A stretch of 64,000 bases of DNA. It comes from Euryodendron excelsum. Taxonomy: Eukaryota; Streptophyta; Magnoliopsida; Ericales; Pentaphylacaceae. Position numbers and translations under genes: made by a program. Every line of letters begins with the position of its first letter. Position 1 is the first letter of the stretch. Shown here piece after piece: positions 24,901 through 64,000 of this stretch. The stretch lies in contig CM065379.1 of assembly GCA_033060915.1 (NCBI GenBank), positions 32,425,818 to 32,489,817 on the forward strand, in the 5' to 3' direction. The notes beneath the pieces are model-generated. The model ran no database searches, was not told the origin of the DNA, and saw only the letters and a list, made by a program, of their open reading frames with translations.

Positions 24901-24938
24901 GGATCAATTCCAAAGATGTTAAGCCAAATATAGGAATA

Positions 24939-24953: not shown

Positions 24954-24955
24954 AT

Positions 24956-35183: not shown

Positions 35184-35306
35184 TATTTATAGAGGAAGGA
35201 CAAACCTAGCGCCTGTTGCAGTGGCGCCAGGCTAAATTATACACTTGCGCCACTAGGAGTGGCGCCAGGCCATTTTTTGGCTTGGCGCCACTACTAGTGG
35301 CGCCAG
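35184..35306 (-). promoter_or_regulatory. LTR C core promoter with three palindromes
   Basis: TATAAATA on minus at 35184-35191. The third palindrome (35283-35305) is perfect: 11-base arms TGGCGCCACTA and TAGTGGCGCCA around one base. The other two lie at 35205-35231 and 35245-35269. Confidence 0.75.
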
Positions 35307-36137
35307 CCATTTAGGAAACAATTGAGGTCGGCAAGCAACGTATCTTTGACTAGATTTGGGCGCCTGTACTAGTGACTACCATGTAAACTTTAGCCTAGCT
35401 TCATTAGGAGTGACTCCGGAAAGTCCGGGAATTAGTTGAAGAAGTCGGGAATGACCCAGAAGGCCAGAAAGGAGCAAGAACACTCAAAATAGTGTCCTGG
35501 AGGTATTTGACTTGAAAAATAAAGATAAGGTGAGTCGGAAAGGTTGACCGGGCCTTTAGGGGCAAAACGGTCAATCGGACTAGGAAACTGCCGGGGCGAA
35601 CCTGGATTGTCCCGGAAAAAGACTTGGGATCTGGAAACATTATTTAGAATGTTCCCAGAGGTTGCCGGTTTGATTCCCAAGGCCGGCGTGGTCAGAAATG
35701 GAGACCGGCCCACCAGGGGCAAAACGGTTATTTTGTACCGGGTTTGCTGGAACTGACTCGGAATGGTGCGGAAAGGTAAAGGAAGGTCGAGAACACTATA
35801 AAAAGTATTCTCGGGACATTACTGGTTTGATACTTAAAGCCGGTATGGTCGAAGAAGGAGACCGGCCCTCTAGGGGCAAAACGGTCATTTTGTACCGGAT
35901 TGGCCAGAACCAACACGAAATGATTCGGAAAAGTAAAGGAAGATTGAGAATACTATAAAAAGTATTCTCAGGACATTACCGGTTTGATACCCAGAGCCGG
36001 TGTGGTTCTCGGGGCATTCGGATGCTTAGGGGCAAAATGGTCATCTTGACCGAAAAGTCTCAGAAAAGGGTCCTAAAGGCAGTCTGGTCATTTTTCACCG
36101 AAGTGAGCTAACAAACATGGGTATTGACCTAGGTTTT

Positions 36138-36655
36138 GAGTGTTTCCGCCACTCGGACGGGGTTGAGTATTTCCGCTACTGGGACAGGGTTGAGTATTTC
36201 CGCTACTCGGACGGGGTTGATGATTTGTGAGTATTTCCGCTACTCTAACGGCTCTGTGAGTATTTCCGTTACTCTAACGGTTCTGTGAGTATTTTCGCTA
36301 CTCTAACGGTTGAGTGAGTAGTTTTGCTACTCGGACTGTCTCGAGGAATAAACTGTCTCGAGAGAGGGATTGGAAAGGGGTCTTACCGTGTCCGAAGAGA
36401 CGTGCCTGGATTGGAACCGTCTCGAGGAATAAACCGTCTCGAGAGAGGGATTGGAAAGGGGTCTTACTGACTCCGAAGAGACGTGCCTGGGTTTTGAATG
36501 TTTCCGCCACTCTAACGGTGTGAGTATTTCCGCTACTCTTAACGGTTTTGTGAGTGTTTTCGCCACTCTAACGGCTTTGTGAGTATTTCCGCTACTCTAA
36601 CGGTTCTGTGAGTATTTCCGCTACTCTAACGGTTTTATGAGTAGTTTTGCTACTC
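36138..36655. repeat. Minisatellites in LTR C
   Basis: Repeats of about 30 bp with GAGTATTTCCGCTACTC occur at 36138-36330 and 36500-36655. Between them are two copies of an 81-bp unit (starting 36336 and 36417, through 36497) that begins C(C/T)GTCTCGAGGAATAAAC. I has five copies at the same place. Confidence 0.85.
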
Positions 36656-37353
36656 GGACCGTCTCGAGGAATAAACTGTCTCGAGAGAGGGATTGGAATT
36701 GGAAAGGAAATGACAATGCCCCTAAGGGCATTTTGGTCATTTTGCCTCTATTTGGGCCTGACAAGCCCGCGAAGCAATGGAAAGACGGAATTTGGACCTA
36801 GAGGGTTGGATTCGATAGGAATATGCCCAAAATGACTTGAAAACAAGTCTGGACGGAGTGTAGACTGCCGAGCGGTCAAAAATGGGGTGCTTACAGTGGT
36901 GTTAGTTTCTGAGATCGCCCGATCTCAAAAAACTACTTGGAGGGTGGTGTTGGTTCTTGAGATTTCCCAATCACAGAAAGCTACCTGTAGGGTGGTGTTG
37001 GTCCACAAGATTGCCTGGTCTCGGAGAGCTACTAGATAATGAACATTCTACATTGGCGAGCTAGCAGGCGCCAAAAGTGAACTGTCTAGAATTTGATACC
37101 CGAAATAACCCGATCTCGAGAAGCTACCTGGATGGCGCCAGTTTCGGAGACTGCCTAGTCTTGGAAAGCTGCCTGAAGTGTCTAAGGGCAATATTGTCTT
37201 TTCAACTTTAATGGGGCCTTGTGGGCTTGGAAAGTGACCAGTCGATTGGATTAGAGTTTGAAAGAGTCGGTCTGGGCTCAAACGCGTTGTGATGTTATAA
37301 CTGAACTCGGTCGAGTTGAAGATTCCTGAGTGACCAAAAATGGGGTGCTTACA

Positions 37354-37990: not shown

Positions 37991-38330
37991 GTTTTCCCGT
38001 ACTCCATTCTAGAAAGGCTTGGAATGAACAAAATCTATTTGAACAATAGCAACATGGTCATCCACGCCTTTGATGGCTCCTGAAGAGAAACCATAAGAGA
38101 AATTGAAATGTCAATCAAGATCAAACCTGTAACCTTCACAATCAAATTTCAAGTCTTGCACATTCTGGTTTTTTACAACTTATTGTTAGGGTGACCCTGG
38201 ATTCACTCGGCAGGCTCAGTCCCTGCTAGCCTCTATCAAACAGTCAAATTCATTATAGGTTCCAAATTAATCTATGTTTTTGCCCAAAAGGAGTTTAGCG
38301 TATATAAAGCTGACACCATCTCACCTGACG
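37991..38330 (+). pseudogene. Ogre/Tat internal region J: protease, active site deleted
   Basis: Reads LNVFPYSILERLGMNKIY, MVIHAFDGS and PWIHSAGSVPASLYQTVKF, all typical of the retropepsin of this branch. The segment holding the catalytic Asp, just before LNV in relatives, is missing: sequence jumps from the VHV motif of the previous domain to LNV, a loss of very roughly 80 codons. Stops follow at DGS and LLG. Confidence 0.82.
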
Positions 38331-38940
38331 CAGAATTGGCCTCTTTCTGCATTCAGTCATTCGAATATGTCACAGTCACACAAAAAGAAGATCAAGTAGA
38401 GCCAAAGTATTCTCAAAATTCCCAGATGATAACTCACTACTTTAAAAAAAAAAACGGTTTTCATTTGGGTAAAGGCTTAGTGAAGAACTTGCAGGGAAAG
38501 CCTGAGATCGTAGAAATACCATCAGCCGAACCCACCTTCGGGCTAAGGTATGAGCCTACCAGAAAAGAGTAGAGAGAAGTAGCCAAGAAGAAAAGGGCTA
38601 ACAGGAAAGTAGCTATGGAGCTCCTTGATCGATTCAACCGATTAGATGTGGGAAAGGTAGTGTTTGCATCAAGTAAAAGTTTGAAGAAAAAGGAAAATTC
38701 AAGAAGAAGCACCTGTCGTGACGACGGATGCCAAAATAACTCAAGATGGGTCCATCTGAGCCACTCTCTTAAGCAAAAACTTCATGACTAGGCCAGCAAG
38801 GACTTCATTCACACCTGCAAGTTTTATTACAAAGCTCGCTAAAGCAAATCTCAAACCACCAAACTCGTCACAAGAGAATCCTATCTTCATAAACTATTTG
38901 TTTTAGCTTTCAATTCAGTTAATTATATTAGACATACCAA
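38331..38940 (+). pseudogene. Ogre/Tat internal region J: G-patch-like segment after protease
   Basis: ASFCIQSFEYV, then YFKKKNGFHLGKGLVKNLQG and FGLRYEPTRKE resemble the glycine-rich G-patch-like segment between protease and reverse transcriptase in Ogre/Tat elements. A stop follows EPTRKE (about 38570) and the frame changes near 38705. The recognisable sequence ends where LTR F starts, so no reverse transcriptase is present. Confidence 0.72.
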
Positions 38941-39488
38941 TGTAAGCACCCCATTTTTGACCGCTCGGCAGTCTATAGTCTGTCCAGACTTGAGTTCAAG
39001 TCAATATAGACATATTCTAGAATTCTAGTCCTAATCTAGTCAACTCATCGCTTCGTAGGCCCACCAGGCCCAAATAGAGGCAAAATGACCAAAATGCCCT
39101 TGTGGGCATTGCCCGGTCCAATCCCATAGGCACGTCTTTCCGAAGACAGTAAGTTCCCTTTCCAATTCCAATAGGCGCGTCTTCCCGAAGACGGTAAGTC
39201 CCCTTCGAATCTCGTAGGCACGTCTTCCTAAAGATGGTAAGTTCCCTTTTCCAATTCCAATTCCAATCCCTCGCTCGAGAAAGTTGGTTCCTCAAGACAG
39301 TAAGTCAATCCTTTCTAGCACAGTTTCCGAAGAAAGTTTCTTCGGAATGGTAAGTCCCTTCAAACTCGTCGACCGGGACGAGACCCCAAGTCCTCGAGAT
39401 GGTAGAACGGTCCACCTTTGGCGCTTGTTAGCCCACTAATGCAGAAATGTCTATTTCAGCACGCCTTCTGAGAAAGTTGGTTCTCAGG

Positions 39489-42400
39489 TGTCGCGCCTAG
39501 ATTTTTCGCACTCGAGGAATACGCACACGAGCGGAAAAAATACTGTACTCTCCCATTAGAACTCACCCTCCTAGAAGAATGAGTGCGACTAGGTTTGAAT
39601 TAAAAATTGATTTGAATAAAGGGCTTTTAGAAAAGATTTTGGGTCGCCACCTAACTTGATTAAGGTGAGTTAGGTCACCTAAAAACTAAGGGCAATCCGA
39701 AGACTACACTTAGGGTTTTTGGAAACAATTTTGAAAATACTTACTCAAGAGAGGGTTTTCATGAGAATAGGTTATTTGGCAATCTTTCGAAAACATTTAA
39801 GCCCTTTTTTGAAAATAAACTCCATTTTGGTCTTTGAAAATAGTGATCCTAGGTTCGGAGGTTGGTTACGTGTAGGGAAGACGCACTAAGCCATCACCCT
39901 ACCCCTCCTTTACGGTACCTACATGTCTATTTACCCTAGATTCACCTATGAGAGTCTTCAACTAACAAATGTTCAATCATATCCACTTTAGAAAATAATT
40001 TTGAAAAAGAATGATACATGATATGCAATTATAAAAGAAAGAGAGTTGGAAAATAATGGAAAATAGATTTGAAGAGAGATTGATTTGATTTAAAAAGAGA
40101 TTTGAAAAGATAGATTTGAAATTGGAAAGTTTTAGAAATTGGAAATAGAAATTTTAAAAATAGATTTTTGGAATTGGAAACTTGAAATAGATTATGGAAT
40201 TAGAGATTTGAAAAGAGTTATGGAAATAGAATCTTAAGAAAGATTGTGGAATTTGAGATTTGAAAAAGGTTGTGACCACACCCATAAAGGTTGCCTACGT
40301 ATCCCTTTGGAGGAATTAGGTTAGTCGTAGTTCGGACAAGAGTCCGATAAAAAACAAAAGAATTGATTTGAAAAAGGAGTTGAATTGGGATTTGGATCGG
40401 AAGATTGGAATTTGGATTGGAGAAGATTGGACTTTGAAGAAAGATTGAGAGTTGGGAATCCTAGATTTAGGAAGATAAGATTTGGACTTGAGATTAAGAA
40501 AGAATTGACTTAGAAAAGATTTTTGAAAAGATTTGACTCGAATGTTGGACTTGGAAGATTAGGGAAGGTTGGATTTAGGAAGGGTTTGAATTAGGAAAGG
40601 TTCTGTTCTAGGAAAGTTCATTTTAGGGAAGTTTCGACTTAGGAAAGTTTTCGACTTAAGAAAGTTTCGGATTAGGAAAGTTTTCAAATTAGGAAATTTC
40701 AACTTAGGAATGGTTTGGATTAAGAAAGTTTCATTTTAAGAAAGGTTTTGAAATAGGAAAGTTTTGAATTTGGAATGTTTTGAAAGTAAGAAAGTTTTGA
40801 GTTTAGAAAGTTTTAGATTTAGAAAGATTTTAAGTTTAAGGAAGTTTAGAATTTGGAAAGGTCAAGATTAGGAAAGATTTGAAGATTAAAGTTTCAAGGA
40901 AAGATTTGAAAGTTTAGGTTTAGAAAACTTACGATTTAGGAAAGTATGAGATTAGGAAGGAGTGGATTAGGAAAGATTTAGACTAGGAAAGATTGAGATT
41001 CCTATTTCCTAAAACAAGGGATTGGACTTTGTTTCTAAAGAGGTGTTTTAATTTTGTTTCCAAAAATGGAGGATAGGATCTAGTTTCCTAAATGGGAGAT
41101 TGGATTTGATTTTCTAAAGAGAGGATTGGATTTGGCATGAATTTGGAAAGATGGAGTTTTGAAAATCCTAGTTTTGGGAAGACTATAGTTTTGATGTAGA
41201 AAATAGGTTTTGAAAATATATATATAGTTTTGATGTAGAAAATAAGAGGTTTTGGAAACCTAGATTTTAAGTCAAGAGTGGAAATCATGTTTTGAGAAAG
41301 GGAATTAGGGTTTCCTAATCGTTGGCTCTAGTGTTTAACTTAGGCTCTAAGAGATTTTCGAAAGTGAGTCTTTAGAAAGAAAGATTTTTGGAAGGAAATC
41401 ATAGAGAGGAGTTTTTAGAAGGGGAGTTTTGAAGAGAGAGTTTTTGGAAAGAATTTTGGAAGGAGATTGTTGGAAAGAGTTTTTAAGAAAGAGATTAGCG
41501 AGCATTTTTAGAAAGTGAATTTTTAGGAGAGTAGTTTGGAAAGGAGTTCAAAAAAAGAGTTTTGAAAAATAGATTTTTAGAAAGAAATTTTGAAAAGGAG
41601 ATTGGTGAGAGTTTTTAGAAAGTATGTTGAAAGAGAGGTTTTTAGTAGGAGAGATTTGAAAAAAGAGTTTTTAGAAAGTATATAAAATATCTCACTTTCC
41701 TAAAGTGATTCTAACCATAAGAAGATTAGAACCACTTTAGGACGGTGGTTTTGAAAACAATGATTTTGAAAATATGGACCATATTGGTCACTTTAAATGT
41801 AACACTTTGCCAAAGCAACCCTAACCATGAAAAGGCTAGAATCACCCTAGGATTGTGATTTTGAAAATAAGTTTTGAAAAATAGGATTTTGATGCAAATT
41901 TGAAAACAAGTTTAATGCAAGTTTTGAAAACGAGTTTGAAAACGAATTTTAGAAGAATGCAAGATCATGATATGCACAATGCAAATTGGGGTCGTGAACA
42001 TACAAGATTAAAGGCTTCACCACATAATCAAGGGGTCGAACGTGGTCTCCGGTTAGACTAAAAGAAAGCCCCCGACACGGTGACCCTCCAATAGCCTAAT
42101 CCTATACATAGACTCGGAAGTCCCTTGTGTCAAGCATGCAAGAAAGGGGGGAAAGAAGATGGGAGATTAAAATAGAAGAAAACCTAAGTGGGTTAGGAGA
42201 GAGAAGAGAGGGGAAAAATGCGTAAACTTAAAGAGAAAGCCTACCTTGAGTCTTGTTTATTTTTCTTTGCTTTACACGCCTTGCTTCTCTTGCTTTGCTT
42301 CGGTCTTCACTTCAGTTTTCGTCTTGATCTTCGAGAACTTCAGTTTGCAACACTTCAAGTCTTCAATGGAGGCTTTGGAGGCTAGTGTATGAGTGTATGT

Positions 42401-43956
42401 GAGTGTATAGGAGGCTAGGGTTTGTGTATGGAGGTTAGGGTTTGGAAAACCTAAAGGAGCTAGGATTTACGGAGGCTACGAGCTCTATATATCGAAGAAT
42501 AGGGTTTGTAGACTGAGTTTACGGACTTCTTTCACGCTGGAGGAGGCTCTGTATTTATAGGGGAAGGGATGATCTAGCGCCTGTTATAGTGGCACCAAGC
42601 CAAAATTCCTTCTAGCACCACTAGGAGTGGCGCTAGGCCAAATATTGGCTTGGCGCCACTACTAGTGGGGCCAGCCAATTAGGAAAGTTTTAAAGTCTGC
42701 AAGTAACGTATCTTGAGAAGATTTGGGCGCCTGTACTAGTGACTACCATGCAATTTTTAGTCTGGCTTCACTAGGAGTGACTCCGAAAGGTCAGGAAAGC
42801 ATTTAAGGGACCAAGAATGGCCCGGAAGGCTGGAAAAGGGCAGGAGCCCTTAGAATAGGGTCCCGGGGTTAATGGACTTGAAAAAGGATGACAAGAATTG
42901 TCAGAAAGGTTAACTGAGCCATTAGGGGCAAAACGGTTAATTAGGCCGGAAAGCTGCCGGGACGAACTCAGAATGTCCCGGAAGAAGACTCAAGATTTGA
43001 AAATATTATTTAGAATGTTCCCAAAGGTTACGGTTTGATAGCCAGAGTCGGTGTGGTTCCTGGGGCGTTCGGATGCCTAGGGGCAAAATGGTCATCTTGA
43101 CCGAAAAGTCTCATAATTGGCCCGAAACTGACTAGAATGCACCTAATCATGTCGGATTGCTTTTAAGACAATCTTGGAAGGGTGGACTTACTGTTATGAG
43201 GACTTAGGTACTTTCTCAAAAAACATGTCAAAAAAGGCCCTAGGGGCAGTTTGGTCATTTTTCACCGAAGTGGGCTAGCAGGCACTAGTGTTGACCTGGG
43301 TTTTGAGTGTTTCTGCCACTATGACAGCGGTCTCGTGATATAGGGGTTTGTTGGCAATTCCCTATATCGACCTATTTGCAAGTATTCCCGCTACTCTGAT
43401 GGTTGCGATGTTTACAAGTACTTTTGTTGCTCTAACGGTTCGCGATCATTCCTGAGACTGCCTAATCTCGGGAAGCTGCTAAAGGGACTTAGCGCCTGAG
43501 GAATCAACTTTCTCGGAAGGCGTGTCGAAACAAACATTTCTGCATTGGCGGGTTAATAGGCGCCAAAGATGGACCATTCTACCATCTAGGGGACTCTAGG
43601 TCTCATCCCGGTCAACGGGTTTGAAGGGACTTACCGTTCTAAAGAAACTTTCTTGGGAAAACATGACGAACAGGATAGACTTACCATCTCGAGGAATTAA
43701 CTTTCTCGAGAGAGGGATTGAAATTGGACTTGGAAAAAGGGACTTACCGTCTTCGGGAAGACGTGCCTACAGGATTGGACCGAACAACGCCCATAAGGGC
43801 ATTTTGGTCATTTTGCCTCTATTCGAGCCCGGCGGGCTTGCGAAGCAGTTTAATTAACGAGATTAAGACTAGAATTCTAGAATATGTCCATATTGACTTG
43901 AACTCAAGTCTGGACAGATTGTAAACTGCCGAGCAGTTAAAAATGGGGTACTTACA
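39489..43956 (-). repeat. 3' LTR of element H
   Basis: 4468 bp, TGTCGCGCCTAG to GGGGTACTTACA. It contains conserved islands at 39855-39930 and 40268-40345 and the AGGAAAG-rich block at 40570-41000. Confidence 0.92.
42552..42680 (-). promoter_or_regulatory. LTR H core promoter with palindromes, partly decayed
   Basis: TATAAATA on minus at 42552-42559. Three inverted repeats follow at 42574-42597, 42612-42636 and 42650-42674; the third has GGGGCC where others have GGCGCC. Confidence 0.65.
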
Positions 43957-43960
43957 GTTG

Positions 43961-43973
43961 CCCCTCTTTTTTT
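43961..43973 (-). other. Polypurine tract of element H
   Basis: On minus a run of seven A then GAGGGG, four bases from the LTR start TGTAAG. It is nearly the same as in A. Confidence 0.78.
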
Positions 43974-44327
43974 GTCTTTGCTTGTCGAAGATAGAAAATG
44001 ATTGAGTAAGAGTCTCATGTTGACCGTGAGGCAGTTGGAGGGACAGACTTTGGAAATTTTAGAAGATGGGATTGTAGAAATGCATATTGGGCCCAAAAGG
44101 CCTTTGAAATCGAGTTTTGGCAGGAAGAAGGGCAAAGCTGCCTGGAATTTGGAACTGGCGCCACTAGGAGCGGCGCTTTTGGCAAATTTAGCTTGGCGCC
44201 ACTGCTTTGGCAAATTCCTGCAAACTGCTGGTTCGACGCTGCTACGGGATTTAATGAGTTTTTCATAAAACCAAGAGGCATTACGAGGAAACCGACTTGA
44301 ACCTTGAAGAGGCACTCCTTGGGGACC
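43974..44327. promoter_or_regulatory. Region upstream of PMD exon 1 in H, with GGCGCC inverted repeat
   Basis: An inverted repeat at 44155-44176 (CTGGCGCCACT with AGCGGCGC) and TTGGCGCC at 44193-44200 resemble the LTR promoter palindromes. Same position as in A; possible promoter of the antisense gene. Confidence 0.4.
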
Positions 44328-44404
44328 ACGGGTGATTGCTATAAGGAGACCACGTCGCCGAAAAAGCCGCCGGAAGAGAACATTTCGCCAGAGAACTTCG
44401 AAAG

Positions 44405-45298
44405 GTGAGTTTTCTATCCTATGCTGATTTTAATGTGTAGAACTCCGTTTAGGTCGTGTGAACAGTGGAAATTGATGTTTTGTATGTTTTGAACACTATG
44501 GTGATGTTATTTTTGCATTTTGATGTTTGTTTGACTGAATTTAAGCGATTTTGCGTGATTATGTGAATGGGGTTTTTGTAGGAATTGGGAGTTTGTTCCT
44601 ACAGGCTTGGGTGTTGAGTTTTTTGGCTAGATTTTTATATTGTGTGCCTTAGAAAAATGTGTTTAACAACCATGCAAAGTTTCATGATTTTTTGAAAACT
44701 TGGTGAATTTTTGATTTTTTGAAAAAATAGAAAAATACATAGAAAATTAGGAAAATTAAGAAAACTTAAGAAATTAATGAAATTTTTAGAGTTTAAAGTT
44801 TGAAAAAATGTAGGAATATTTTAGAAAACATTTGAAATGATTTTGAGGAATTTTAGGACATTTTTGAAAACCATTGATTTATTAGAAAAATAAAACATGT
44901 GTTTTAAAAATTTCAGAAAATTAAAAAGTGTGCACGGGTGCTGATGTTATGTGATTATGACGTTGTGAAGTGCACGATTTGTGTTTTGTGTTGATGTCAT
45001 GGGTGTTGTAGGAACCATTTTTAAACGAAACTGTGTTGAAATTTTTTTTTAGAAATCAAGAAAAGAGTTAGAAAAGGTTTAAAAATAAAATCTTTTTGAA
45101 AGAAAAAGACAGAAAAGCCTTGAGATTTGACTTGAAATTGGAAAATCAAAAGGTGTAGAAAATTCGTTTGGACTTATCATTTGAAATCTTTTTATTATTA
45201 TTATTTTGTTTGCTTTTATTGCTTATTTACTTTATTTTATTATTATCTATCTGCATGTACCATATATTAACACCTCTTACCTTGGCTTACCTTTTCAG
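44405..45298 (+). other. Intron 1 of PMD gene, element H
   Basis: 894 nt; GAAAG/GTGAGT donor and TTTTCAG/GATGG acceptor. Splicing joins AG to G, giving an in-frame codon before ATGGCTGATGCG. Confidence 0.8.
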
Positions 45299-46970
45299 GA
45301 TGGCTGATGCGGGTGATGATGGTTCTAAGAGGAGATGTCGCTCGGGGAAGGCGGCTCGGACAGACTCTACCGGTGGTTCCAACCGATCCAGAGGTAGCCA
45401 ATGATCTACTGGACGAGCCTCTTCCAGTTAGAACGGACAAGGGAGTAGACCACCTGTCAACCATTTTCCTCCGGTTGAGCAAGCCTTTGCAGAGGAGATC
45501 GGTGGAGAGGAGGAGGTACCGAGTTTGGATGACTAGGTCATCGGTTATGGGAGAGCCTTCTCTAGACATAGGCAGACAGATGCTGATTTGGGTGACCTGG
45601 AGGTACCAGACATCCCGCTGCTTGGGGATCTTGCTTATCACCCTAGTGTATACTCTAGACAACATTTGCCCCCTCCTCGGGTACACACAGCTTTTAGAGG
45701 GGCTGTTCATCAGGTCTCCGTGACCATACAACGGGCGGCTCCATCATATTGTGCCTTCCTGGCTGAGATCGAATTCGGAGCCTTCATGGGATTACAGGCT
45801 AATAGCTAGAATTGGCATTTGGTACTAGCGCTTATTGAGAGGTGGTTCAGGAAGACCGGAACCTTTCATTTTTTCGGCTTCGAGTTAGGACCCACTCCCT
45901 TGGATTGGGCCATCATCACAGGGCTTTCCTTTGTCGTCCGGCGAATTACCTTATGGTCAGTCAGTAGAGACGAGGTCTGCCTTCTGCTAGACTTGCCCCC
46001 TCCTAAGCATTCTGCCTTCCTAGTCTCTTGGATCAGTCAGGATGACTGTACCTTTGCTGCTGAGCTATCGCCTGCCAAGCGGGACATTATGAGACGGCAA
46101 CTTATTTTGTACATCATCTTTAGCTGCTTCTGCAACAACAACAAGTCGCTTGTGCCTTTTCGGTTAGTGAGCATAGTAGCTGATCTTGGGGCTTTATCTG
46201 AGCTGGATTAGGGGTCCTTCTCCTTTGGCTGCTTCATTCGATCGATGCGGGTCCGGACTTCTTCCCATTGGGGCAGCATGACTAGTTTTTGACCCTTTCT
46301 TGTATGGTGGAGCTATGAGTACCTGCCTAATCGTCGCCCTGTAGTTGTCGAGCACGACCTTTATCCTCGTGCTTTGAGGTGGGCTCGTGATCAGGTGGCC
46401 CAGCGATCGAAGATTATTGACTTCGTGACGCTACGGGCGAACGTAAAGTTGATTGAGGTGAGGGATGTAACATGGCGGCCTTTTCTCAGGTCAGTTCATT
46501 ATGAGACTGTATGGTACTTAGTTCCGTTGTCCCTGTCACGGGCTACTTTTCTCAGTGACGATACTTGAGAGTCCTATTTAGGATAGCGACACTGGCGGTA
46601 GTTTCATAAGGAGTTCCGATCAGCAGGAGCTCCACCGAAGTTTATGTTTGGGGCCTTGGTAGCGGGAGTGCCCATCCCTTATCAAGAGCGCCAGCCAAGT
46701 GTCGAGTTCTTGCTTCCTTCCGATACAGACTATATTGTACACATTGGGGCTCATTCTGTCTGTGCCTTCACCCGGTTTAAGGTAGTAGTCGGTGGGTATG
46801 CTGTTGACTAGGAGGTGGTTGACTTGTGGCACCGAGCTGGAGGATATGTGCCCCAAGCTAAGTTTACTGCTGTGAGAGACCAGAGAGATCAGTACCAGAT
46901 GGAGCGGGATCAGTACCAAGCCGAGGTAGCTTCCCTGACGGCTCGGTTATCTCAAATGGGCGGTGGCGGG

Positions 46971-47061
46971 GTATATTATTCTTTCTCTACTTCTTCCGTT
47001 CACTCTGCTATTATCTAGTTATTCATTTATCTTGCTGATTCTGGCTGTGCCTTCTTCGCAG
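46971..47061 (+). other. Intron 2 of PMD gene, element H
   Basis: 91 nt; starts GTATAT and ends CTTCTTCGCAG with a strong pyrimidine tract. Both exon ends lie on codon boundaries. Confidence 0.78.
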
Positions 47062-47148
47062 GATGGCGGTGCTTCTAGTAATTATTCACCTCCTCTGATG
47101 CCGGGTTTCGGGGATTTCGATCCAGATGACATTGGCTTTAACCTTTGA

Positions 47149-47749
47149 TGGATGCCCCTTATGAAGACTTCGATCTACCTTTGCCCCTATTCCTGAGATG
47201 TATTTATGTTAGATAGTTTTATTTTGATGGATATTTATGGTATTTAGATGTATGGATAGGCAGAGACATTTATGATTGATTGTTTTTTTAGCTAAATATA
47301 TGATCTGATGCATATGATGGATGATGATGTTGTGTATCTATTATATGAGTTGATATTAAACTGTTATGGGTGACCTATGTATGCAAAGCTCCTGCTGTTT
47401 TTTTTTTTTTTTTTTGAAAATGTATGCACACATTAGAAATATTCTAGTTAATGGAATGACAAAGGGTGTTGTCCCACTTAATATCTTTGGAATGGTAACT
47501 CCTTCCTTTTTGGGGGCCTAGCCTCTCTTTGGCTCAATCTTACCTTGACCGAATGATGGCACTTCATAACTTTCTCAACCTTCTGACCCTCTCCAATTCT
47601 CTGTTTCAGGGTTAGTGTATGGGGTTATTGGGCTGAAACTCTCGACTCTCGAGGTTTTAACAACAGCTTTCCTGACCTTCAGGAAAGCGATAAGCAGCCA
47701 GTCCTTTCAATCCGAGGAGACTTTGTTTAGGATCATAATGTAGGCTAAG
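47149..47749. other. Downstream region of PMD gene, element H
   Basis: AT-rich with a T run near 47399-47416. No gene seen. It corresponds to 12291-12818. Confidence 0.5.
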
Positions 47750-48172
47750 TTATGGGGTTTCAGAAACAACGGGATATGTAGGTTCAAATTTGATGTTGTT
47801 TTCAGTAGGGTTTAGATCCATACCATCTTTGACTATTTTTCTTCTAGTAGGGTTAGCATCTATTCTTGGCTTTGGCAGTGTGTCCAGCTCACTTAGATCA
47901 AGCAATCCATTTTCAATCAGACTGGACTTTAGTAGGGTTGTAATGTAGGCCATGGTTTTGGGGTTTTGCAAGGAATGGTAAAGGTTCGAACCTATTGTTT
48001 CTACTGGGTTTCTTTGTAACCTAGGATCACCTTTAAATTTCCTTCTTGCTGTTACTATACACTTCTCAGGGTGAAAATGACTCTTTTCTTTCATCCTTTC
48101 TATATGATTTTTGAGATAAACATGACTCTCTTCTCTTTCGATCTTCTTATTATGCTTTTGAAGATGACTCAA
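47750..48172 (-). CDS. Unassigned minus-strand ORF between gag and PMD gene, element H
   Basis: 140 open codons: Lys/Glu-rich (SHLQKHNKKIEREE, IERMKEKSHFHPEK), then RLQRNPVETIG, TMAYITTLLKSSLIENGLL and PTYPVVSETP. No ATG at the upstream end. It corresponds to 12819-13333 with conserved protein-level features. Family unknown; could be a remnant of a polyprotein segment or a spliced exon. Confidence 0.4.
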   Translation of the reverse strand: MSHLQKHNKKIEREESHVYLKNHIERMKEKSHFHPEKCIVTARRKFKGDPRLQRNPVETIGSNLYHSLQNPKTMAYITTLLKSSLIENGLLDLSELDTLPKPRIDANPTRRKIVKDGMDLNPTENNIKFEPTYPVVSETP

Positions 48173-49074
48173 TCATAGTTTTCTTCAGGCCCCTTTTTTT
48201 TTTTTTTTTTTTTGGCCTCTTATCTCTTGGCAACTCTTTTCCTTCACTTTTTTTTTTCTTTTATCTCTTTTCTTTCCAAACCATTCTACAACCCTTTTTT
48301 TTCTTAGACTTTTTCCTTAGTAGTTCAATCTAACCCAATGTGGGCGGTGATCCCTAGGTTGGGATTTTTTCGAAAAAGATAAATGGCTCAACGGGTTTGG
48401 CAAGAGGTTGCTTCTGATTGTATGGGAAATAAAATGAGGGTTTCTTTTCACTTTGTACTAGATTGCTTGATCTATAGAGCTTTCGATACTCTCCTAGCAC
48501 GATAGAGGTGGATACCATTCCTAGAGTTCTCAAATATTGTCTGCCCCAGTGTGGGGAGGACAATCTTAGATCGGGGTTAACAAAAAAAATTGTTGCTTGT
48601 TGCGAGGCTCTAGGGGTTCAGCAAGGGGGATATAAGCATTATTTATTTATTTATATGTGGGGTTGTGAAAGATGGCTCCTCTTCATTTTGATAAACTGAC
48701 CACAAATCGCTTAACTTCAGTGTCTTGCAAGTGTTGCCTTTAGGTAGTTTCCTCACTCATCCTTACCCTCTCTCTCTCTGGAAAGCTGATCATTTGGCGA
48801 GTGGTTAACTCGTCCTATCATCCCTTCAAGTCAAATTGACCTTTAAGATAAACCATGCCCCTTGTGTAAAAAGTAATTATCATTCACAAGAGAAAAGAAG
48901 GCAATAGCGATGAATAAAAAGATTTAATCATTTTATTTTATCCATGAAAAGCATATAGTTCTATTTTAAAGAAACAAAAATGCAGATATTAATTTAAGGA
49001 CAAAAATATAAAAGGGATAGAAAGAGGGTGGGTGAAAACACCGCTCTCTTGTACGCTTTTGAAGGGAACCCATT
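48173..49074 (-). other. Spacer downstream of gag, element H
   Basis: Has a long T run on plus near 48190-48213, another around 48248-48262, and a 69-codon minus frame at 48354-48563 (SSPHWGRQYLRTLGM) shared with A. No function could be assigned. Confidence 0.4.
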
Positions 49075-51075
49075 TCAGTAAGGCTTTAGGTTAATGCCCA
49101 CATCTTTGATGCTCCATTCATGATCCGGGTCCTCGGCCAAGGCGAGACAAGTAATGGCTTCTTCTAGAGCCCCGAACATGTTGATGTTGCTGGCACAGTT
49201 GTCAACCCCCTTCTTGTTCTTTGCAGTAGGTTCTTCTGTAAATAGGGTGACTAGTTTACCTCCTTCTAACTCGAACGGTTCTATCTGTGCTCTTGGCTTC
49301 TCTACCCCCCAGCTCATTTCTTCATAGTTGTACTCAGTCCCGAGCTAAGGGTTCTTTAGTAAGTGACCTTCCAATGCGGCATACTTTGGATGCAGAAACT
49401 CAGCGCCCCATCCATCAACAGCTATATTTTCAGCAAGCTCTTCTTCCGGAAACATTGGCTCCTCAACTGGCCAATCAGAACCATCAAGCACCTCATGAGG
49501 GTTATAAGATCGGGCATAATGGGAAGTCTTCCTCCCAATCATCTTCTTCATCAATCTCCCAATTGTCCTTATAATCTTCAGCCACGGGCTTGTCGAACTC
49601 TGCCTTACCTTCCATTTCTACTAGTATCATGTTAATGGTATGGTCTAGCAGAGGATTGGTGGTCACATTGGGAGTAGGAGCCGGCTTTACTGGTTGCAGA
49701 TCAATAGTTTTGTTGTCTATCAGGTCGTGAATTTTATGCTTGAGAGAGAAGCAGCTTTCAGTGTCGTGCCCTTGGCCACCCGAATGGTATTCACAAGTAA
49801 AGGAGGTATTGAAGGTTGGGGGTAGAGGGCTTGGCAATGGACGAGCAGGTATGGGCTTCAAAATATTATTCTTCAGAAGGTTGTGGTAAGCCTTGGTTTT
49901 AGTGCAAGCTAAGGTATCAAAAACACGGGTGCGTCAGGCAAGCCTATTAAAGTTGGGTCGTGCCCTAACAGGGTCGTAGTTAGGGGTTGGAACAAGCATG
50001 GTTAAAGTGGGTAAGGGCAGGATAGGGTGTGATTGTAATGGCAATCGGTATTGGGTTGTTCGGCCAGGCAGGATGGCAGACACTTTGCTTTCCTTCTTGA
50101 TTGTTCCCCTTGTAGTAGCCACCTTCTTGGCTATATTGGCGGTATACTCTCCAGTCTTGGCATAGGGGTCCATAATCCTCCTTGTCTTGAGGCCGTTTTC
50201 TATCATCTCCCTTTGCATGATGAGCTCAGATAAGCTTTTCCCTACACTTGTGCAGAGCTTCTCAGAGTATATACCTTGAAAAGTGTGCACAAATAGTTGT
50301 ACATACTCCTTTTCTTCCAGCGAGGGATTGACTTATGCAGCAGCCTCCCTCCATCTTAGGGCATACTTCTTGAAGCTTTCCTTTTCACCCTTGCTCATTG
50401 TCATCAGGGACCATCGGTCAGAGGTGAGATCAATATTGTGACGATATTGAGCTTTAAATCCATTGACAGTTTGATCCAAGTTGTGATCTTCCTTAAGTCC
50501 AAACGAACAAACCATTATAGAGCAGACCCCGTGAGGCTGTGTTGGAATAGCTACATGAGGAGTTTTCGATCGTTGTCGTGACCACTTAGCGCTTTGGCAT
50601 AGAGACGAAGATGAGCGACGGGGTTACCAGTGCCGTCATATTTTTGGAAGTCAGGCATTTTGAACCTAGCAGGTCTTGGGTGGTCAAGAAAGAAACATAA
50701 CTCGTCATAGGCAGTGAAACCGTAGGCGTCATGGCCATGGAGACTTCGCAGTGAATCCTCTAGCCCTTGGATTTTCATACTAAGAGGGTCTAAGGGGGCC
50801 TTCTTTACGACAGGTGAAAGTAATATGGTCTCACCCTCTTCAGCGCTGATCCCTTTGGCATCTTCCTTATTCCTCCCAGCATTGTCAGACTGAAGCACGA
50901 TCCTTGGATTAGCAGGTTCAGGGTCCTTGGATGAAGTCATAGATGATGATGGAACTGCAGCAGTATCCTTCATAGCCATAGTTTGAATAAGTTTGAACAT
51001 CTCATCCATCTTGATCCTCATTTCTTTGACCTCTTTCCGAGAGACTTGAGATGATTCTTCAGGATTAGCAGCCAT
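49075..51075 (-). pseudogene. gag: Ogre/Tat-type gag with acidic tail, element H
   Basis: 2001 nt from ATG 51075 to a TAA after the NLKPY end. Starts MAANPEESSQVSRKEV; capsid-type domain from FKMPDFQKYDGTGNP with HLRLYAKALSGHDND; then QGIYSEKLCTSVGKSLSEL; zinc-like CEYHSGGQGHDTESC; PNVTTNPLLDHTINMI; acidic tail with EEDDWEEDFPLCPI. The frame moves in the middle (about 50515-49502) and returns, so two compensating indels. Better preserved than A but still inactive. Confidence 0.86.
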
Positions 51076-52623
51076 CAGTGATGCTCTTTATCGGATGATA
51101 ATGGGATCCCTAGATGGATGTTGCCCCTTCTTGGGAGCAATGTTGACTCAGTGCAGGGTGATCTCTGTAAATAAAAAGGAAAAGACAAAAACACAAAAAC
51201 ACAAATCGCAAGTCAGTTTCTGGTTTTTAAAGAGCTTTATGCAATGCATGTCCTAGGGTGTCCCTATTTAAGAGGAAAACTAACCATGATGTATTGGCCC
51301 ACTTTTAGAGATAGGGGATTCACCCCTGTATGTAGATATCTTACCGTCAGACGGGAAACTTCATCCATTTGCATATTCATCCATCCATTTGCTCAAGGAA
51401 AATAAAGAAATACATTTAACTTTGGATTTTAGATACAAAAGAATTGAAATACATTTTAACAGGGAGAGGGAACATGTTTCTTTAGGATTTCTGCCTATCT
51501 AGTTTTACATAAGAAGTCCTAAACTACTCTTGAGTCTTCGGATTGGCCTTCCTTGGATTTGATATCGAGGAGGTCGCTGACAGACCTTTTTGATTAATTG
51601 CCCCTTGTCTTTATGGCAATCCCATCTTCGTGAGCATGGAGTGATTGGGGCCCCTCCTATGGAATGAATTAAGGTGCATGCCATGAGTCCTTAGGGTTAC
51701 GTGGGAACCCTTAGGGTTTAGGTAGGTTTAATGCAAGGGAGAGTGAACTAGGTGTCACTCTCTTTGGGTTGATCATATGCATAAGAATGCAATGACTTGA
51801 GTTACTTGAAACTCTTGTCTTCACATGGAATATGGGATACATGAAAATAGATGCATAGAGTATAAGCAAAGAGAATACAGTTGACGTACATATGCATGTA
51901 TGAGCAATTAGATAGTCATTATAACAGTAAGAATAAACTCATTATAATAACAGGAATAAATAGATATAAATGAAAGTAAGAGAAGTTGCCCTTTTCTCCA
52001 TGGTTTTGAAAACAGTGCGCGTGTCTTAAATCTGGCAGAGGTTCGGCTATGCAAAGTGTCTATATGAGCATGAGGTTGAAGGTTGACTAATGCATCCTAA
52101 AAAGGCTTAGTCCCCGGATCTTCAAACCTAAGCTCACTCCCCGAGGTGGTGCCATGATCGGTTGGTGATCCGAGCAGGGGAACCATCAAGAAGCCGTAGG
52201 CAAAGAAACTGACACAGCATCTTGCCCATAACCAATATACCATTCCCTCTTTCTAAATAGAAGGGTCATATCAGGGTAAAAATGCAAGCATGCAGAATGC
52301 AAGTGCACGTACAGTGTCTGTATGATTTTTGAAAGCAAAGGAAATAGCCCAACAACTCCCATTCATCTTGTTCATCACATTCATGCATGACAGTTAATAA
52401 AATTTAAACAAAAAGTGCACCTACAAAACAAAGATGCAAAAGTTAGTATGCGGATGGTAAGCTTAATACAAGATAATATGAATAAATGTATGTTTTTTTT
52501 TTAAAACAACTTTAAAAATTTGGTTTTGCAAATTTAAAGTGAATAAGATTGAACAAGTTAATTCAAGACTCTACATGGGTGAAGGGTAAAGAGACATGAC
52601 TATGGCCTAACCCTCTAAGTTTT
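51076..52623 (-). other. 5' leader of element H
   Basis: 1.55 kb without ORFs, alignable to A's leader over its full length. Confidence 0.5.
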
Positions 52624-52639
52624 CTCAATGGACTCGCCA
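52624..52639 (-). other. Primer binding site of element H
   Basis: TGGCGAGTCCATTGAG on minus, two bases inside the 5' LTR end. Confidence 0.72.
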
Positions 52640-52641
52640 GG

Positions 52642-54621
52642 TGTTACGCCCAAATTTTACGCACTTAAGGAATACACACACAAGCGACAAAAATACTATA
52701 CTCTCTCATTAGAACTCACCCTCCTAGAAGAATGAGTGCGACTAGATTTGAATTGAAAATTGATTTGAGTAAAGGGCTTTTAGAAAACATTTGGAGTTGC
52801 CACCTAACTTGATTAAGGTGAGTTAGGTCACCTAAAAACTAAGCGCAATCCGAAGACTACATTTAGGGTTTTTGGAAACAATTTTGAAAATACCTCCTCA
52901 AGAGAGGGTTTTCAAGAAAACAGGTTGTTTGGCAACCTTTAGAAAACATTTAAACCCTTTTTTGAAAATAAACTCCATTTTGGTCTTTGAAAACAGTGAT
53001 TCTAGCTTCGGAGGTTGGTTACGCGTAGGGAAGACGCACTAAGTCATCACCCTACCTCACCCTTGTGGTACCTACATGTCTATTGACCCTAGATTCACCT
53101 ATGAGAGTCTTCAACGAACAAATGTTCAATTCTATCTACTTTAGAAAATAATTTTGAAAAAGAATGATGCATATATGCAATTATAAAAGAAAGAGAGTTG
53201 AAAAATAGATTTGAAGAAAGATTGATTTGATTTAGAAAGAGATTTGAAAAGATAAATTTAAAATTGGAAAGTTTTACAAATTGGAAATAGAAATTTTAAA
53301 AATAGATTTTTGAAATTGGAAACTTGAAATAGATTATGGAATTGGAGATTTGAAAAGAGTTATGGAAATAGAATCTTGGAAAAGATCATGGAATTTGAGA
53401 TTTGAAAAAGGTTGTGAACGCACCCATGAGGGTTGCCTACATATCCCTTTGGAGGAATCAGGCCAGTCGTAGTTCAGACAAGAGTCTGATAGAAAATAGA
53501 AGATTTGATTTGAAAAAGGAGTTGAATTGAGATTTGGATCAGAAGATTGGAATTTGGATTGGAGAATATTGGACTTTGAAGAAAGATTGAGATTTGGGAA
53601 TCCTAGACTTAGGAATATAAGATTTGGCCTTGAGATTAAGAAAGACTTGACTAAGAAAAGATTTGGCTCGAATGTTGGACTTAGAAGACTAGGGAAGGTT
53701 GGATTTAGGAAGGGTTCGAATTAGGAAAGGTTCTGTTTTAGGAAAGTTCATTTTAGGAAAGTTTCGACTTAGGAAAGTTTTCGACTTAAGAAAGTTTCAG
53801 ATTAGGAAATTTTTCGAATTAGGAAAGTTTCAACTTAGGAAAGTTTTGGATTAAGAAAGTTTCATTTTAAGAAAGGTTTTAAAATAGGAAAGTTTTTAAT
53901 TTGGAATGTTTTGAAATAGGGAAGTTTTGAAAGTAAGAAAGTTTTGAGTTTAGAAAGTTCTAGATTTAGAAAAATTTTAAGTTTAAGAAAGTTTAGAATT
54001 TAGGAAGTTTAGAATTTGGAAAGATCGGGATTAGGAAAGATTTGAAGATTAAAGTTTTAATGAAAGATTTGAAAGTTTAGGTTTAGGAAACTTACGGTTT
54101 AGGAAAGTATGAGATTAGGAAGGAGTGGATTAGGAAAGATTTAGACTAGGAAGGATTGAGATTCCTATTTCCTAAAACAAAAGATTGGACTTTGTTTCTA
54201 AAGAGGTATTTTGATTTTATTTTCAAAAACGGAGGATAGGATCTAGTTTCCTAAATCGAAGATTGGATTTGGTTTCCTAAAGGGAGGATTAGATTTGGCA
54301 TGAATTTGGAAAGATGGAGTTTTAGAAATCCTAGTTTTGGAAAGACTATAGTTTTGATGTAGAAAATAGGTTTTGGAAATATATATATAGTTTTGATGTA
54401 AAAAATAAGAGGTTTTGGAAACCTAGATTTTAAGGTAAGAGTGAAAATCATGTTTTGAGAAAGGGAATTAGGGTTTCCTAATCGTTGGCTCTAGGGTTTA
54501 ACTTACACTCTAAGAGATTTTGGAAAGTAGGTCTTTGGAAAGGAAAATTTTTGGAAGGAAATCCTAGAGAGAAGTTTCTAGAGTAAAAAGAATGATGCAG
54601 GTCAAAAATGGGATACTTACA
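52642..54621 (-). repeat. 5' LTR of element H, internally deleted
   Basis: 1980 bp against 4468 in the partner. It follows the partner up to about 54580 (equivalent to about 41412), then jumps to the last 25-30 bases (GTCAAAAATGGG...TTACA). The loss removes the TATA and palindrome promoter, so this copy could not start transcription of H today. Confidence 0.88.
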
Positions 54622-57600
54622 TCAGGCACTAGGTCCCTTTCGCAGCTTCTCGGGATTGTCGCGCCCAGATTTTTCACACTCGAGGAATACTCACCCAAGT
54701 GGGAAAAATGTTGTACTCTCTCATTAGAACTCACCCTCCTAGAAGAATGAGTGCGACTAGGTTTGAATTGAAAAATTGATTTTGAATAAAGGGCTTTTGA
54801 AAAACATTTGGAGTCGCCACCTAACTGGATTAAGGTGAGTTAGGTCACCTAAAAAACTAAGCATAGTCCGAAAACTACACTTAGGGTTTTTGAAAAATAA
54901 TTTTGAAAATATCTCCTCAAGAGAGGGTTTTTAAGAAAAACAGGTTGTTTGGCAACCTTTGAAAAAAATTTAGCCCTTTTTTGGAAAAATAACTCCTTTT
55001 GGTCTTTGAAATCAGTGATCTAAGTTCGGAGGTTGGTTACGTGTAGGGAAGACGCACTAAGCTATCACCCTACCCCGCCCTTTCGGTACCTACATGTCAA
55101 TCTACTCTAGATTCGCCTATGAGAGTCTTCAACCAACTATAGTTCAATCCTATTTACTTTGAAAAACAAATGTTTAAAAACTAACATGATGCATGATATG
55201 CAAGTGCAAGTTAAGAGGATTGGAAAATAGAAACTGATTTGAAAAGAAATTGATTTGATTTGAAAATAGATTTGAAGAAATAGAATTGAAATTGGAAATT
55301 TTGAAAATTTGAAAATAGAAATTTGAAAATGGAAAGTTTGAAAGTAGACGGGAATTTGAGATTTGAAAAGATTTTGGAAACCGCACCCATGAGGGTGGAA
55401 TTGAAAGTTTGAAAAGTATTGTGACCGCACCTATGAAGGTTGCCTACGTATCCCTTTGGGGGAATTAGGTCAGTCGTATTTCGGACCGGAGTCCGATTGA
55501 AAATAGAACGTTTGATTAGAAGAAAAAGATTGAATTGAAAACTAGATTTGATTTGGGATTAGAAGAGGAGATTGGAAATTGAAATTGAGAAGATTGGACT
55601 CGCTTTGGAAAGATTGATTTTGGAAAGACTTGGTTTTAGGAAACCTAGACTTAGGGAAGATTTGACTCGACTCGGAAGGTTTAGGAGATTTAGGAAAGGT
55701 TGGATTTAGGAAATGTTTGAATTAGGAAAAGTTCGATTTAGGAAAGTTTAATTTTTGGAAAGTTTTCAAATTAAGAAAGTTTTCAAATTAGGAAAGTTTT
55801 AGGTTTGAGAAAGTTTCAACTTAGGAAAGTGTTGTTTTAGGAAAGGTTTTGAAATTATGAAGTTTTGAAAATTGGGAAGTTTTGAATTTAGAAAGCTTTG
55901 AGTTTAGAAAGTTTTGAATTAAGAAAACTCCATTTTAAGAAAGGTTTTGAAAAAGGAAGGTTTTGAAAATAAAGAAGTTTTGAAAATAGGAAAGTTTTGG
56001 ATTTGGAAAGATGTTGAAGTTTTGGAAAGATTTAGAATTTAGAAAGCTTGGAAGTTTAGAAAGATTTAACTTAAGAAAGTTTTGAATTTAGGAAACTTTG
56101 GATTTGAAAAGATTTGAAATTTGGAAAGTTTAGGATTTAGAAAGTTTTAGAGTTTGAATTTTAGAAAGTCTTGAAATTAGGAAAGGCTTGAATTTAGGAA
56201 AGGTTTTGAAAACTTGGATTTGGCAAGTTAAGATTTGGAAAGGGGTAGAATTAGGAAAGGGTTGAAGTTGAAAGTTTTAGGAAACTTATGGTTTAGGAAG
56301 GTGGAAGTTTAGGAAGGATTTGAATTAGGAAAGATTTGGATTTGGGAAGGGATTGGATTTGGTCTCTAAAAGAAAAGATTTGATTTTGTTTCCAAAAACG
56401 GAGGACGGGATCTAGTTTCCTAAACGGAGAGATTTGATTCGGTTTCCTAAAGGGAAGGTAGGATTTGGCTAGGATTTGGAAAGGGAGATTCTAGAAACCC
56501 TAGATTTGGAAAATTATAGTTTCGGCATAGAAAATAGGTTTTGGAAACGTGTATGGTTTGGATGTAGAAAACAAGAGATTTTAGAAACCTAGGTTTGGGG
56601 CAAAGTTTGAAAATCATGTTTTTGGAAAGAAAATTAGGGTTTCCTAATCGTGGTTTCTAGGGCTTGACTTGGGCTCTAAGGAAAGAGTTTTTTGGAAAAC
56701 GCATTTTTCGAGAACGAAGGTTTTCTAGAAGGGAATCCTAGGGAGGAGTTTTTGGAAAGTGAATTTGGAAAGAGAGTTTTTGAAAAGATTTTTGGAGAAG
56801 GAGTTTTGGAAAGTGTGTTTTTAGAAATAGGTTTTTTGGAAGGAAAATCCTAAAGGGGAATTTCTAGAAGGGAGATTTTGAAAAAGAGAGTTTTTGGAAA
56901 GATTTTTAGAGAGCGTTTTTAGAAAGTGGATTTTGGGAAGAGGATTTTGGAAAGGAGTTGAAAAAGGGAGTTCTGAAAAATAGATTTTGGAAGGGAATTT
57001 TTGAAAACAGTTTTGGAGAGGAGAGTTTTAGGAAAGTATGTTGAAAAAGAGATTTTTAGGAAGAGATTTTTTAAGAGAGAGTTTTTAGAAGGATTAAAAA
57101 CATCTCACTTTCCTAAAGTAATTCTAACCATAAGAAGGCTAGAACCACTTTAGGAAAACGGTTTTGAAAACAACAAGATTTGAAAATATAGACCAAAAGG
57201 TCATTTTTAATGTAACACTTTCCTAAAGCAACCATAGCCATGGAAAGGCTAGAATCACCCAAGGATTGTGATTTTGAAAACATGTTTTTGAAAAAGAGCT
57301 TTTGATGCAATTTTGAAAACAAGTTTGAAAACGATTTTTGAAAACAACTTTTTGAAAACGAATTTTGGAAGATGCAAGACTATGATATGCACAATGCAAG
57401 GTTAAGGCTTCACCACATAATCAAGAGGGCCGGACCCACGTGGTCTTTGGTTAGACTAGAAGAAAGCCCCCGACACGGTGACTCTCTAATAGCCCAATCC
57501 TACACATGGACCGGGAATCCCCTTGTTTCAAGCATGCAAAGAAAGGGCGGGAAAGAGATGGGGGATTAAAATAGAGAAAACTCAAGCGGGTTGGAGAGTG

Positions 57601-58924: not shown

Positions 58925-59165
58925 TTTGAGTGTCTCCGCCACTCTAACGGTGTGAGTATTTCCGCTACTCGGACAGGGTTGAGTATTTCGGCTACTCGGA
59001 CGGAGTTGATGATTTCCGCTACTCGGACGAGGTTGAGTATTTCCGCTAATCTAACGGGGTTGATGATTTGGGAGTATTTCCGCTACTCGGACGAGGTTGA
59101 GTATTTCCGCTACTCAGACGGGGTTGAGTATTTCCCTTACTCTAACGATTTTGTGAGTAGTTTTG
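58925..59165. repeat. About 30-bp minisatellite in LTR I
   Basis: Units with GAGTATTTCCGCTACTC followed by (G/T)(G/A)ACGGGGTTG or CTAACGG. It is the same family as in C but with different unit order. Confidence 0.8.
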
Positions 59166-59174
59166 CTACTCGGA

Positions 59175-60817: not shown

Positions 60818-60941
60818 GCTGGGGCCACTAGTAGTGGCGCTAAGCCAAATATTGGCCTGGCACTACTCCTAGTGGCGCTAGAAGGATTTTTGGCATAGCA
60901 CCACTGCAACAAGCGCCAGGTCATTCCTCTCTCTATAAATA
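60818..60941 (+). promoter_or_regulatory. LTR F core promoter with palindromes (plus strand)
   Basis: Inverted repeats between 60818 and 60920 (for example GGGGCCACTAG with TAGTGGCGCT) precede TATAAATA at 60934-60941. This is the same layout as in the minus copies, in mirror image. Confidence 0.65.
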
Positions 60942-63900: not shown

Positions 63901-64000
63901 TTTCAATTCAAACCTAGTCGCACTCATTCTTCTAGGAGAGTAAGTTCTAACGAGTGAGTACAGTATTTTTTCTGTTTGTGTGTGTATTCCTCGAGTGCGA

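Follow-up and report, generated by a model that had tools for sequence, protein, structure and literature searches.

An antisense, probably spliced plant mobile domain gene formerly under purifying selection in a gag-only LTR retrotransposon family of Euryodendron excelsum

Self-comparison of the 64,000-nt window (the whole stretch of DNA analysed here) revealed two minus-strand elements, A and H, with a common internal region; their features are listed in Table 1. Element H is complete, with both LTRs and the 5-bp target duplication CCTGA on either flank, and its TG..CA LTRs, target duplication, primer binding site and polypurine tract identify it as an LTR retrotransposon. The two LTRs of H are 0.927 identical over 1912 aligned bases, and those of A are 0.936 identical over 1241 bases and 0.887 identical over 1856 bases. 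The 3' LTR of A is cut by the start of the window and interrupted by a nested Ty3/gypsy element. Ty1/copia domains also adjoin A, ending at its edge. A search of Rfam over positions 38000-56000 returned no matches.

Table 1. Positions of the features of elements A and H in the window (-, minus strand; +, plus strand;., no strand assigned).
Feature	Position	Strand	Basis or remarks
Internal region of A	9122-17843	-	
PMD gene of A	9492-12290	+	Alignment to H; decayed, second acceptor mutated
Parts of the PMD gene of A	leader 9492-9568; intron 9569-10448; exon 2 10449-12115; intron 12116-12203; exon 3 12204-12290	+	
gag of A, decayed	14258-16253	-	Retrotrans_gag, 33.7 bits
5' LTR of A, ~4.8 kb	17844-22626	-	
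Target-site duplication of H, distal to 3' LTR	39480-39484	.	CCTGA on the minus strand, same as 54622-54626
3' LTR of H, ~4.5 kb, TG..CA	39485-43956	-	Self-BLAST and termini
Internal region of H	43957-52637	-	
Polypurine tract of H, adjoining 3' LTR	43957-43973	-	A/G run before TGTAAG; counterpart in A
Putative non-coding leader exon of H (exon 1)	44328-44404	+	Followed by invariant GTGAGT; ATG in 1/11 copies, in-frame stop in 7/11
Putative leader intron of H (intron 1)	44405-45298	+	Donor GTGAGT 11/11; AG no more than 1 nt before start codon 11/11
Main coding exon of the PMD gene in H (exon 2)	45299-46970	+	ATG at 45300; PF10536; third-position bias; 10 in-frame stops
Putative second intron of H, 91 nt	46971-47061	+	GT 10/11, AG 10/11
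Putative last exon of H (exon 3)	47062-47148	+	TGA 47146-47148; terminal TGA in 10/11 copies
Spacer of H, gag to PMD gene	47149-49077	-	No pol domain found
gag of H, decayed	49078-51087	-	Codon-position bias; Retrotrans_gag detected in A
Primer binding site of H, adjoining 5' LTR	52619-52637	-	CTGGCGA-type sequence at LTR end
5' LTR of H, internal deletion	52638-54621	-	TG terminus kept
Second target-site duplication copy of H	54622-54626	.	

The gag domain was identified by Pfam in A; the three minus frames of H gave no Pfam match to gag, and H aligns to the gag of A with an identity of 0.859. Between the two elements gag exhibits a w of 0.23 over 492 codons and of 0.47 over the last 173, with no shared stops. 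As the earlier note on this DNA had claimed, the family appears without pol: neither reverse transcriptase nor RNase H nor integrase was found by Pfam in the six frames of A or the three minus frames of H, stops being translated as X in these scans. Pfam also returned no match to the spacer in the three minus frames of each element, and pol remnants in the spacer were rejected on this ground. An ORF at 47753-48172 was rejected as a coding region, its own frame having a w of 0.93 and the other frames values of 0.64 and 0.43 with 13-14 stops.

At least 40 copies of the A/H family are present in the genome (1,059,474,997 bases in 39 contigs). In each DNA search of this genome the best 40 of 4032-8355 first-look candidates were scored, and statements about the family as a whole rest on these best-scoring copies; element A itself is absent from the best 40 for the full gene probe. 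A 3.2-kb layout probe, running from the 3' end of the plant mobile domain (PMD) gene through the spacer into gag, matched over its whole length and with a similar genomic span in 18 of the best 40 copies, H included, nearly whole in three more, and as two adjoining pieces in another three. In a further seven, homology stops near the gag 3' end and a gag piece resumes 449-542 bp on. In all, 31 of the best 40 copies could not accommodate pol between gag and the PMD gene, the remaining nine being uninformative. A and H, with gag and no pol found, belong to a family of LTR retrotransposons that is gag-only and pol-less. Such terminal-repeat retrotransposons are known as TR-GAG elements; A and H resemble these in their LTRs, primer site, polypurine tract, target duplication and gag, with pol not found, and differ from them in that the family carries a second, antisense, selected gene.

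In A as in H this second gene lies antisense to the element, with gag on one side and the polypurine tract on the other, which agrees with the earlier note. In H, the plant mobile domain PF10536 was detected on the plus strand at ~45804-46598 with a score of 58.7 bits (E 7.3e-16; cut-off 34.9, the gathering score) in a conceptual translation that gives stops as X; in A the domain is divided between two frames, with scores of 30.9 and 19.4 bits, each under the same cut-off. Read along H, the gene consists of 77 nt, GTGAGT, an AG directly before the ATG at 45300, 557 codons, GTATAT, CAG, 28 codons and TGA. The earlier note is right on the length of 77 nt for the first segment, on the joints being in phase (44404/45299 and 46970/47062) and on the 557 codons of exon 2 in H. 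An 11-copy alignment was assembled from A, H and nine copies of full gene length chosen among the best-scoring of the 40 listed. The ATG at 45300 is present in all 11 copies. An ATG in exon 1 occurs in A alone, with ACG in eight copies and ACA in two, and the supposed exon 1 frame contains a stop in seven of the 11, indicating that exon 1 is non-coding. At most, exon 1 would be a leader exon, which would make intron 1 a leader intron, and the original model of three coding exons was rejected. A host gene interrupted by an inserted element was rejected as well: in A and H alike the gene is flanked by gag and the polypurine tract, and 31 of the 40 best copies have it next to gag.

The features of its two interruptions suggest that the antisense PMD gene is probably spliced. 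Donor 1 is GTGAGT in 11/11 copies, beside the 77-nt segment in which only 27 columns are invariant, and by the general splice consensus it scores best among the 174 GT sites of H and the 177 of A. By the same consensus, acceptors 1 and 2 of H tie for first among 190 AG sites, and donor 2 of H falls outside the ten best GT sites. Acceptor 1 reads CAGG, TAGG or CAGA in six of the 11 copies and CAAG in the other five, shifting the AG by one base, and an AG is found within one base of the expected place in every copy. Donor 2 is GT in 10 copies and acceptor 2 is an AG in place in 10. Both putative introns are T-rich (T 0.40 and C 0.09 in intron 1). The neighbouring plus-strand element described below carries, from the corresponding position, a stretch with ~70% identity to intron 1, and the counterpart of donor 1 there is AG followed by GTAAGT.

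The case for intron 2 is weaker than that for intron 1. In 10 of the 11 copies a frame continued into intron 2 closes 14-15 codons later, so that the 3' end may be used unspliced. Speaking for the intron, exon 3 contains no stops in 307 codons over the 11 copies, compared with 4.5 expected at the exon 2 rate (P 0.012), and has a mean divergence over 55 pairs of 0.136 versus 0.225 for intron 2, a difference that is also seen between A and H alone (Fisher p 0.013). Speaking against it, the two gap events in exon 3 among the 11 copies are both frame-shifting; the shared variants of exon 3 (3/4/7 by codon position) decide nothing.

Among the 40 best-scoring genomic copies, 34, H included, span the whole gene, introns and all, in matches of 2.74-2.83 kb, with the caveat that a copy without introns might rank below the best 40 through its lower score. 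A 159-nt probe of joined exons 1 and 2 detected no spliced genomic copy among the best 40 of 4032 candidates. One of these 40 matches stops within a few bases beyond the joint. The claim that an RNA-propagated family has retained two GT-AG interruptions is thus upheld as to their presence in most of the best copies, and the word "spliced" is to be read as probable.

An unlikely alternative accepts a genuine PMD protein that was under selection but denies that intron 1 is an intron, in which case transcription would start in the T-rich stretch without a leader exon and the single long ORF alone would be expressed, with or without exon 3. Such an arrangement would account for an exon 1 with an ATG in one of 11 copies and a broken frame in seven, for the one-base alteration of acceptor 1 in five, and for the greater mean divergence of exon 1 than of intron 1 (0.206 versus 0.117 over 55 pairs, the reverse of what the earlier note would have had), but against it stand the invariance of GTGAGT beside so variable a 77-nt segment, the first rank of donor 1 among 174 and 177 GT sites, the retention of the donor consensus as GTAAGT in a related element and the AG no more than 1 nt from the start codon in 11/11 copies. 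The reading in which intron 1 is a leader intron is preferred here.

The earlier note called the two-intron structure intact, but neither A nor H is intact. Exon 2 of H contains 10 in-frame stops, and A contains 11 stops and, relative to H, two 1-nt deletions and one 3-nt deletion, in addition to its mutated second acceptor. No stop is common to A and H in 606 codons compared. The 11 copies contain 3 to 13 stops each, and all 11 are dead. In exon 2, 89 stops are distributed over 52 of the 61 stop-capable codons, and 26 positions carry a stop in two or more copies, compared with 26.9 expected if the copies decayed independently. This recurrence is at the chance level, such that no stop need be inherited, and inherited stop codons were rejected.

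The PMD protein was under strong purifying selection while the family spread, and decay followed. Between A and H, exon 2 exhibits a dN of 0.105 and a dS of 0.346, a ratio of 0.302, and the mean pairwise w of exon 2 over the 55 pairs of the 11 copies is 0.341. A neutral model with LTR-derived trinucleotide rates predicts a dN/dS of 0.704 or 0.713 from the two starting copies, and 0 of 1000 simulations from either copy gave a value as low as 0.302. When the rates are taken from internal non-coding parts, a set that includes intron 1, the predictions are 0.694 and 0.719, and the lowest values among 500 runs each were 0.476 and 0.483. The modelled decay after insertion amounts to a dN of 0.099 and a dS of 0.133, leaving a dN of ~0.006 and a dS of ~0.213 for the active period. 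In the 11-copy alignment, exon 2 variants found in at least two copies are distributed over the three codon positions as 108/76/165 (p=2.6e-10), versus 136/157/151 for private variants (p=0.34). Shared variants may include recurrent transitions; purine-pyrimidine changes, which are less prone to recurrence, when taken alone give 8/1/28 for shared (p=8.5e-8) and 45/60/51 for private variants (p=0.3). Intron 1 is without a codon-position pattern in either class (shared 52/48/47, private 59/69/64). Distinct gap events occur at 3.0 per kb in exon 2 versus 42.5 per kb in intron 1 among the 11 copies, an excess in the intron that may partly reflect A/T-rich runs.

The comparison of exons with introns proposed in the earlier note gave a divided outcome: conservation of exon 2 is supported by these codon-level and indel tests, and not by plain identity, which between A and H is 0.845 for exon 2, 0.872 for intron 1 and 0.670 for intron 2; the mean divergence of exon 2 over the 55 pairs is 0.142, which likewise exceeds the 0.117 of intron 1. 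Relative to the change expected from the LTRs, the observed change is 0.83 in the gag leader, 0.88 in intron 1, 0.93 in exon 2, 1.00 in exon 3, 1.08 in exon 1 and 2.18 in intron 2. The total divergence of exons 2 and 3 is not clearly below the neutral expectation, and intron 1, being at or below it, is not free-running sequence. The codon bias in the PMD gene and the low w in gag together indicate that both genes were kept by selection while the family moved.

Selection on amino acids is not predicted by a role of the RNA only, and it is very unlikely that the antisense transcript rather than the protein is what matters, by regulating the sense RNA or feeding small RNAs, as has been proposed for other antisense ORFs (PMC7264820) and as seen in tea, where 175 phased siRNA loci are reported at PMD genes (PMC10673657). 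An RNA role and a protein role may nevertheless coexist. Chance capture of a host PMD gene fragment as a functionless passenger, already disfavoured, is scarcely credible in view of the third-position bias in shared and not in private variants, the w of 0.30 versus a neutral 0.70 and the place beside gag kept in 31 of the 40 best copies, even though gene transduction by plant retrotransposons is known (PMC7264820) and all 11 copies are dead.

The account of a gag-only family with a selected, antisense, intron-bearing PMD gene and later neutral decay is, taken as a whole, likely to be correct. The sense strand would supply gag, and reverse transcriptase and integrase would come from another element. 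The antisense accessory gene would comprise a non-coding leader exon, a leader intron of ~890 nt, a long PMD exon with the start codon, a second intron of ~90 nt and a short last exon, with the introns presumably removed from the antisense transcript. An intron in antisense orientation is not recognised when genomic RNA is spliced, and those of A and H would on this account outlast reverse transcription, as judged from their strand and the established rules of splicing. After insertion each copy would decay neutrally, mostly by transitions. The PMD protein would most likely act in the nucleus on element expression or on host silencing in which related host PMD proteins take part; this is the weakest step of the account, and is drawn by analogy from MAIN and MAIL1, host PMD proteins active in silencing (PMC5418596, PMC7156037), and from the nuclear antisense protein of maize Grande (PMC7264820).

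PF10536 has at least 192 matches in this genome (114 of 7154 candidates scored) and none in the 14 control genomes. Eight ORFs were tested at loci from the best PMD matches, of which three contain a MULE transposase domain and two a PMD. Against 28 loci of the genome, the best matches of the A/H PMD protein are ~27% identical over 155-182 residues. The first 20 stretches examined came from the best PMD matches, and none of the 28 loci has a DNA match to any exon or intron of H, nor to its spacer, gag or leader. A protein search of a large collection gave nothing at E 0.001 among 7997 candidates scored, viral contigs contained no relatives of two queries, and solved structures gave no matches.

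Extra antisense ORFs and the occurrence of PMDs in transposons were, as the earlier note stated, both in print (PMC11963269, PMC6317226). The PMD (pfam10536) has been reported from 57% of Ogre elements; among non-chromovirus elements, LTRs of up to ~5 kb are frequent (PMC6317226). The A/H family, with its PMD gene and long LTRs, resembles these Tat-type Ty3/gypsy elements and is probably of Tat/Ogre type; A and H are without pol, however, and the lineage is thus unreadable from them. The Tat arrangement of a second RNase H before integrase is seen in the neighbouring element with related LTRs. The primer site of Ogre is complementary to tRNA-Arg (PMC9289625). Antisense ORFs are located between pol and the 3' LTR in Retand, which is similar to A and H in having an antisense accessory gene before the 3' LTR and some non-autonomous members, but whose domain is Transposase_28 (97% of clusters); the terms "intron" and "mobile domain" are absent from the text of that paper (PMC11963269). 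Only Gypsy elements are said to encode PMD-A1 and A2 (PMC5418596), and the likeness of the A/H gene to these proteins and to host MAIN and MAIL1 is known at the level of the common Pfam domain. Plant LTR elements are generally without introns, with Ogre and EVADE given as exceptions in a 2025 review (PMC12786077; see also PMC6317226); the introns of Ogre and EVADE are in the sense RNA, whereas those of A and H are in an antisense gene. A survey of extra ORFs in plant retrotransposons used getorf with ORFs of at least 250 codons, so introns would have escaped modelling, and questioned the function of such extra genes because they are so variable (PMC6317226).

The neighbour is an apparent plus-strand element with related LTRs that extends from window position 59858 into the adjoining stretches L029 and L030. 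Reverse transcriptase, RNase H, a second RNase H and integrase were identified in it (L029), with the reverse transcriptase match beginning ~420 bp past the LTR end, and gag was detected neither by tblastn with the gag pieces of A and H nor by Pfam in the three plus frames. Its 3' part contains the polypurine surroundings and the intron-1-like stretch, with no PMD found there by tblastn or a two-row profile. A weak antisense match to DUF7745 (18.9 bits, cut-off 26) is also present in the 3' part, and a related LTR is nested inside the element. The A/H family and its neighbour thus have the LTR type, polypurine surroundings and leader-intron donor in common. The pol domains of this one element, its short distance from LTR to reverse transcriptase and its undetected gag raise the doubtful idea of a split retrotransposon, with one partner carrying gag and the antisense intron-bearing PMD gene and the other carrying pol; a simple deletion in the neighbour would fit the missing gag too. 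If the split reading were true, selection on the PMD in a pol-less family would mean that the protein mainly helps the copies encoding it, possibly by shielding them from host silencing by MAIN/MAIL1 relatives.

The PMD domain, antisense placement and gag-only elements are each already in print; a description of an intron-bearing antisense PMD gene was not found in the open-licence literature searched. In the A/H family, selection on the protein can be read directly from inherited versus private mutations. If its introns are spliced, this family would be a natural mobile element that carries introns through RNA by means of an antisense gene, a gene structure that single-ORF surveys would miss. 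It also raises the question of why a polymerase-less element keeps a gene related to host silencing factors.

The predicted first intron of the plant mobile domain (PMD) gene of element H diverges less than exon 2, and among 11 aligned copies (those of the pol-less elements A and H and nine from elsewhere in the genome) it retains invariant runs of 18, 13 and 12 nt. A stretch ~70% identical to this intron is found in the neighbouring Tat-type element, where the donor reads GTAAGT; no gag was detected in this element.

Feature coordinates in and around elements A and H
Feature	Position	Strand	Remarks
Nested Ty3/gypsy element	1277-7224		Within 3' LTR of A
Ty1/copia gag and GAG-pre-integrase matches	22627-31714	-	Stop next to 5' LTR of A
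Probable solo LTR, related family	31715-36896		~5.2 kb; ACCAC at both flanks, read by eye
Predicted intron 1, PMD gene of H	44405-45298	+
Tandem array	58935-59577		Units of ~81 bp
Tat-type element	59858-64000, on into genome stretches L029 and L030	+	pol and two RNase H domains

Element A appears to have inserted at the Ty1/copia domains, and itself carries a nested Ty3/gypsy element whose LTRs are 97% identical over 672 bp. Long open frames of the nested element match gag at 71.8 bits and reverse transcriptase at 122.3 bits, and its final ORF, judged by eye from the sequence, looks chromodomain-like. Long ORFs also arise on both strands of the tandem array, and these are probably spurious.

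Elsewhere in the genome, the stretches chosen from the best PMD matches (L009-L028) hold high-scoring PMD loci, several with uninterrupted frames, and ORFs from L009, L026 and L027 contain a MULE transposase domain.
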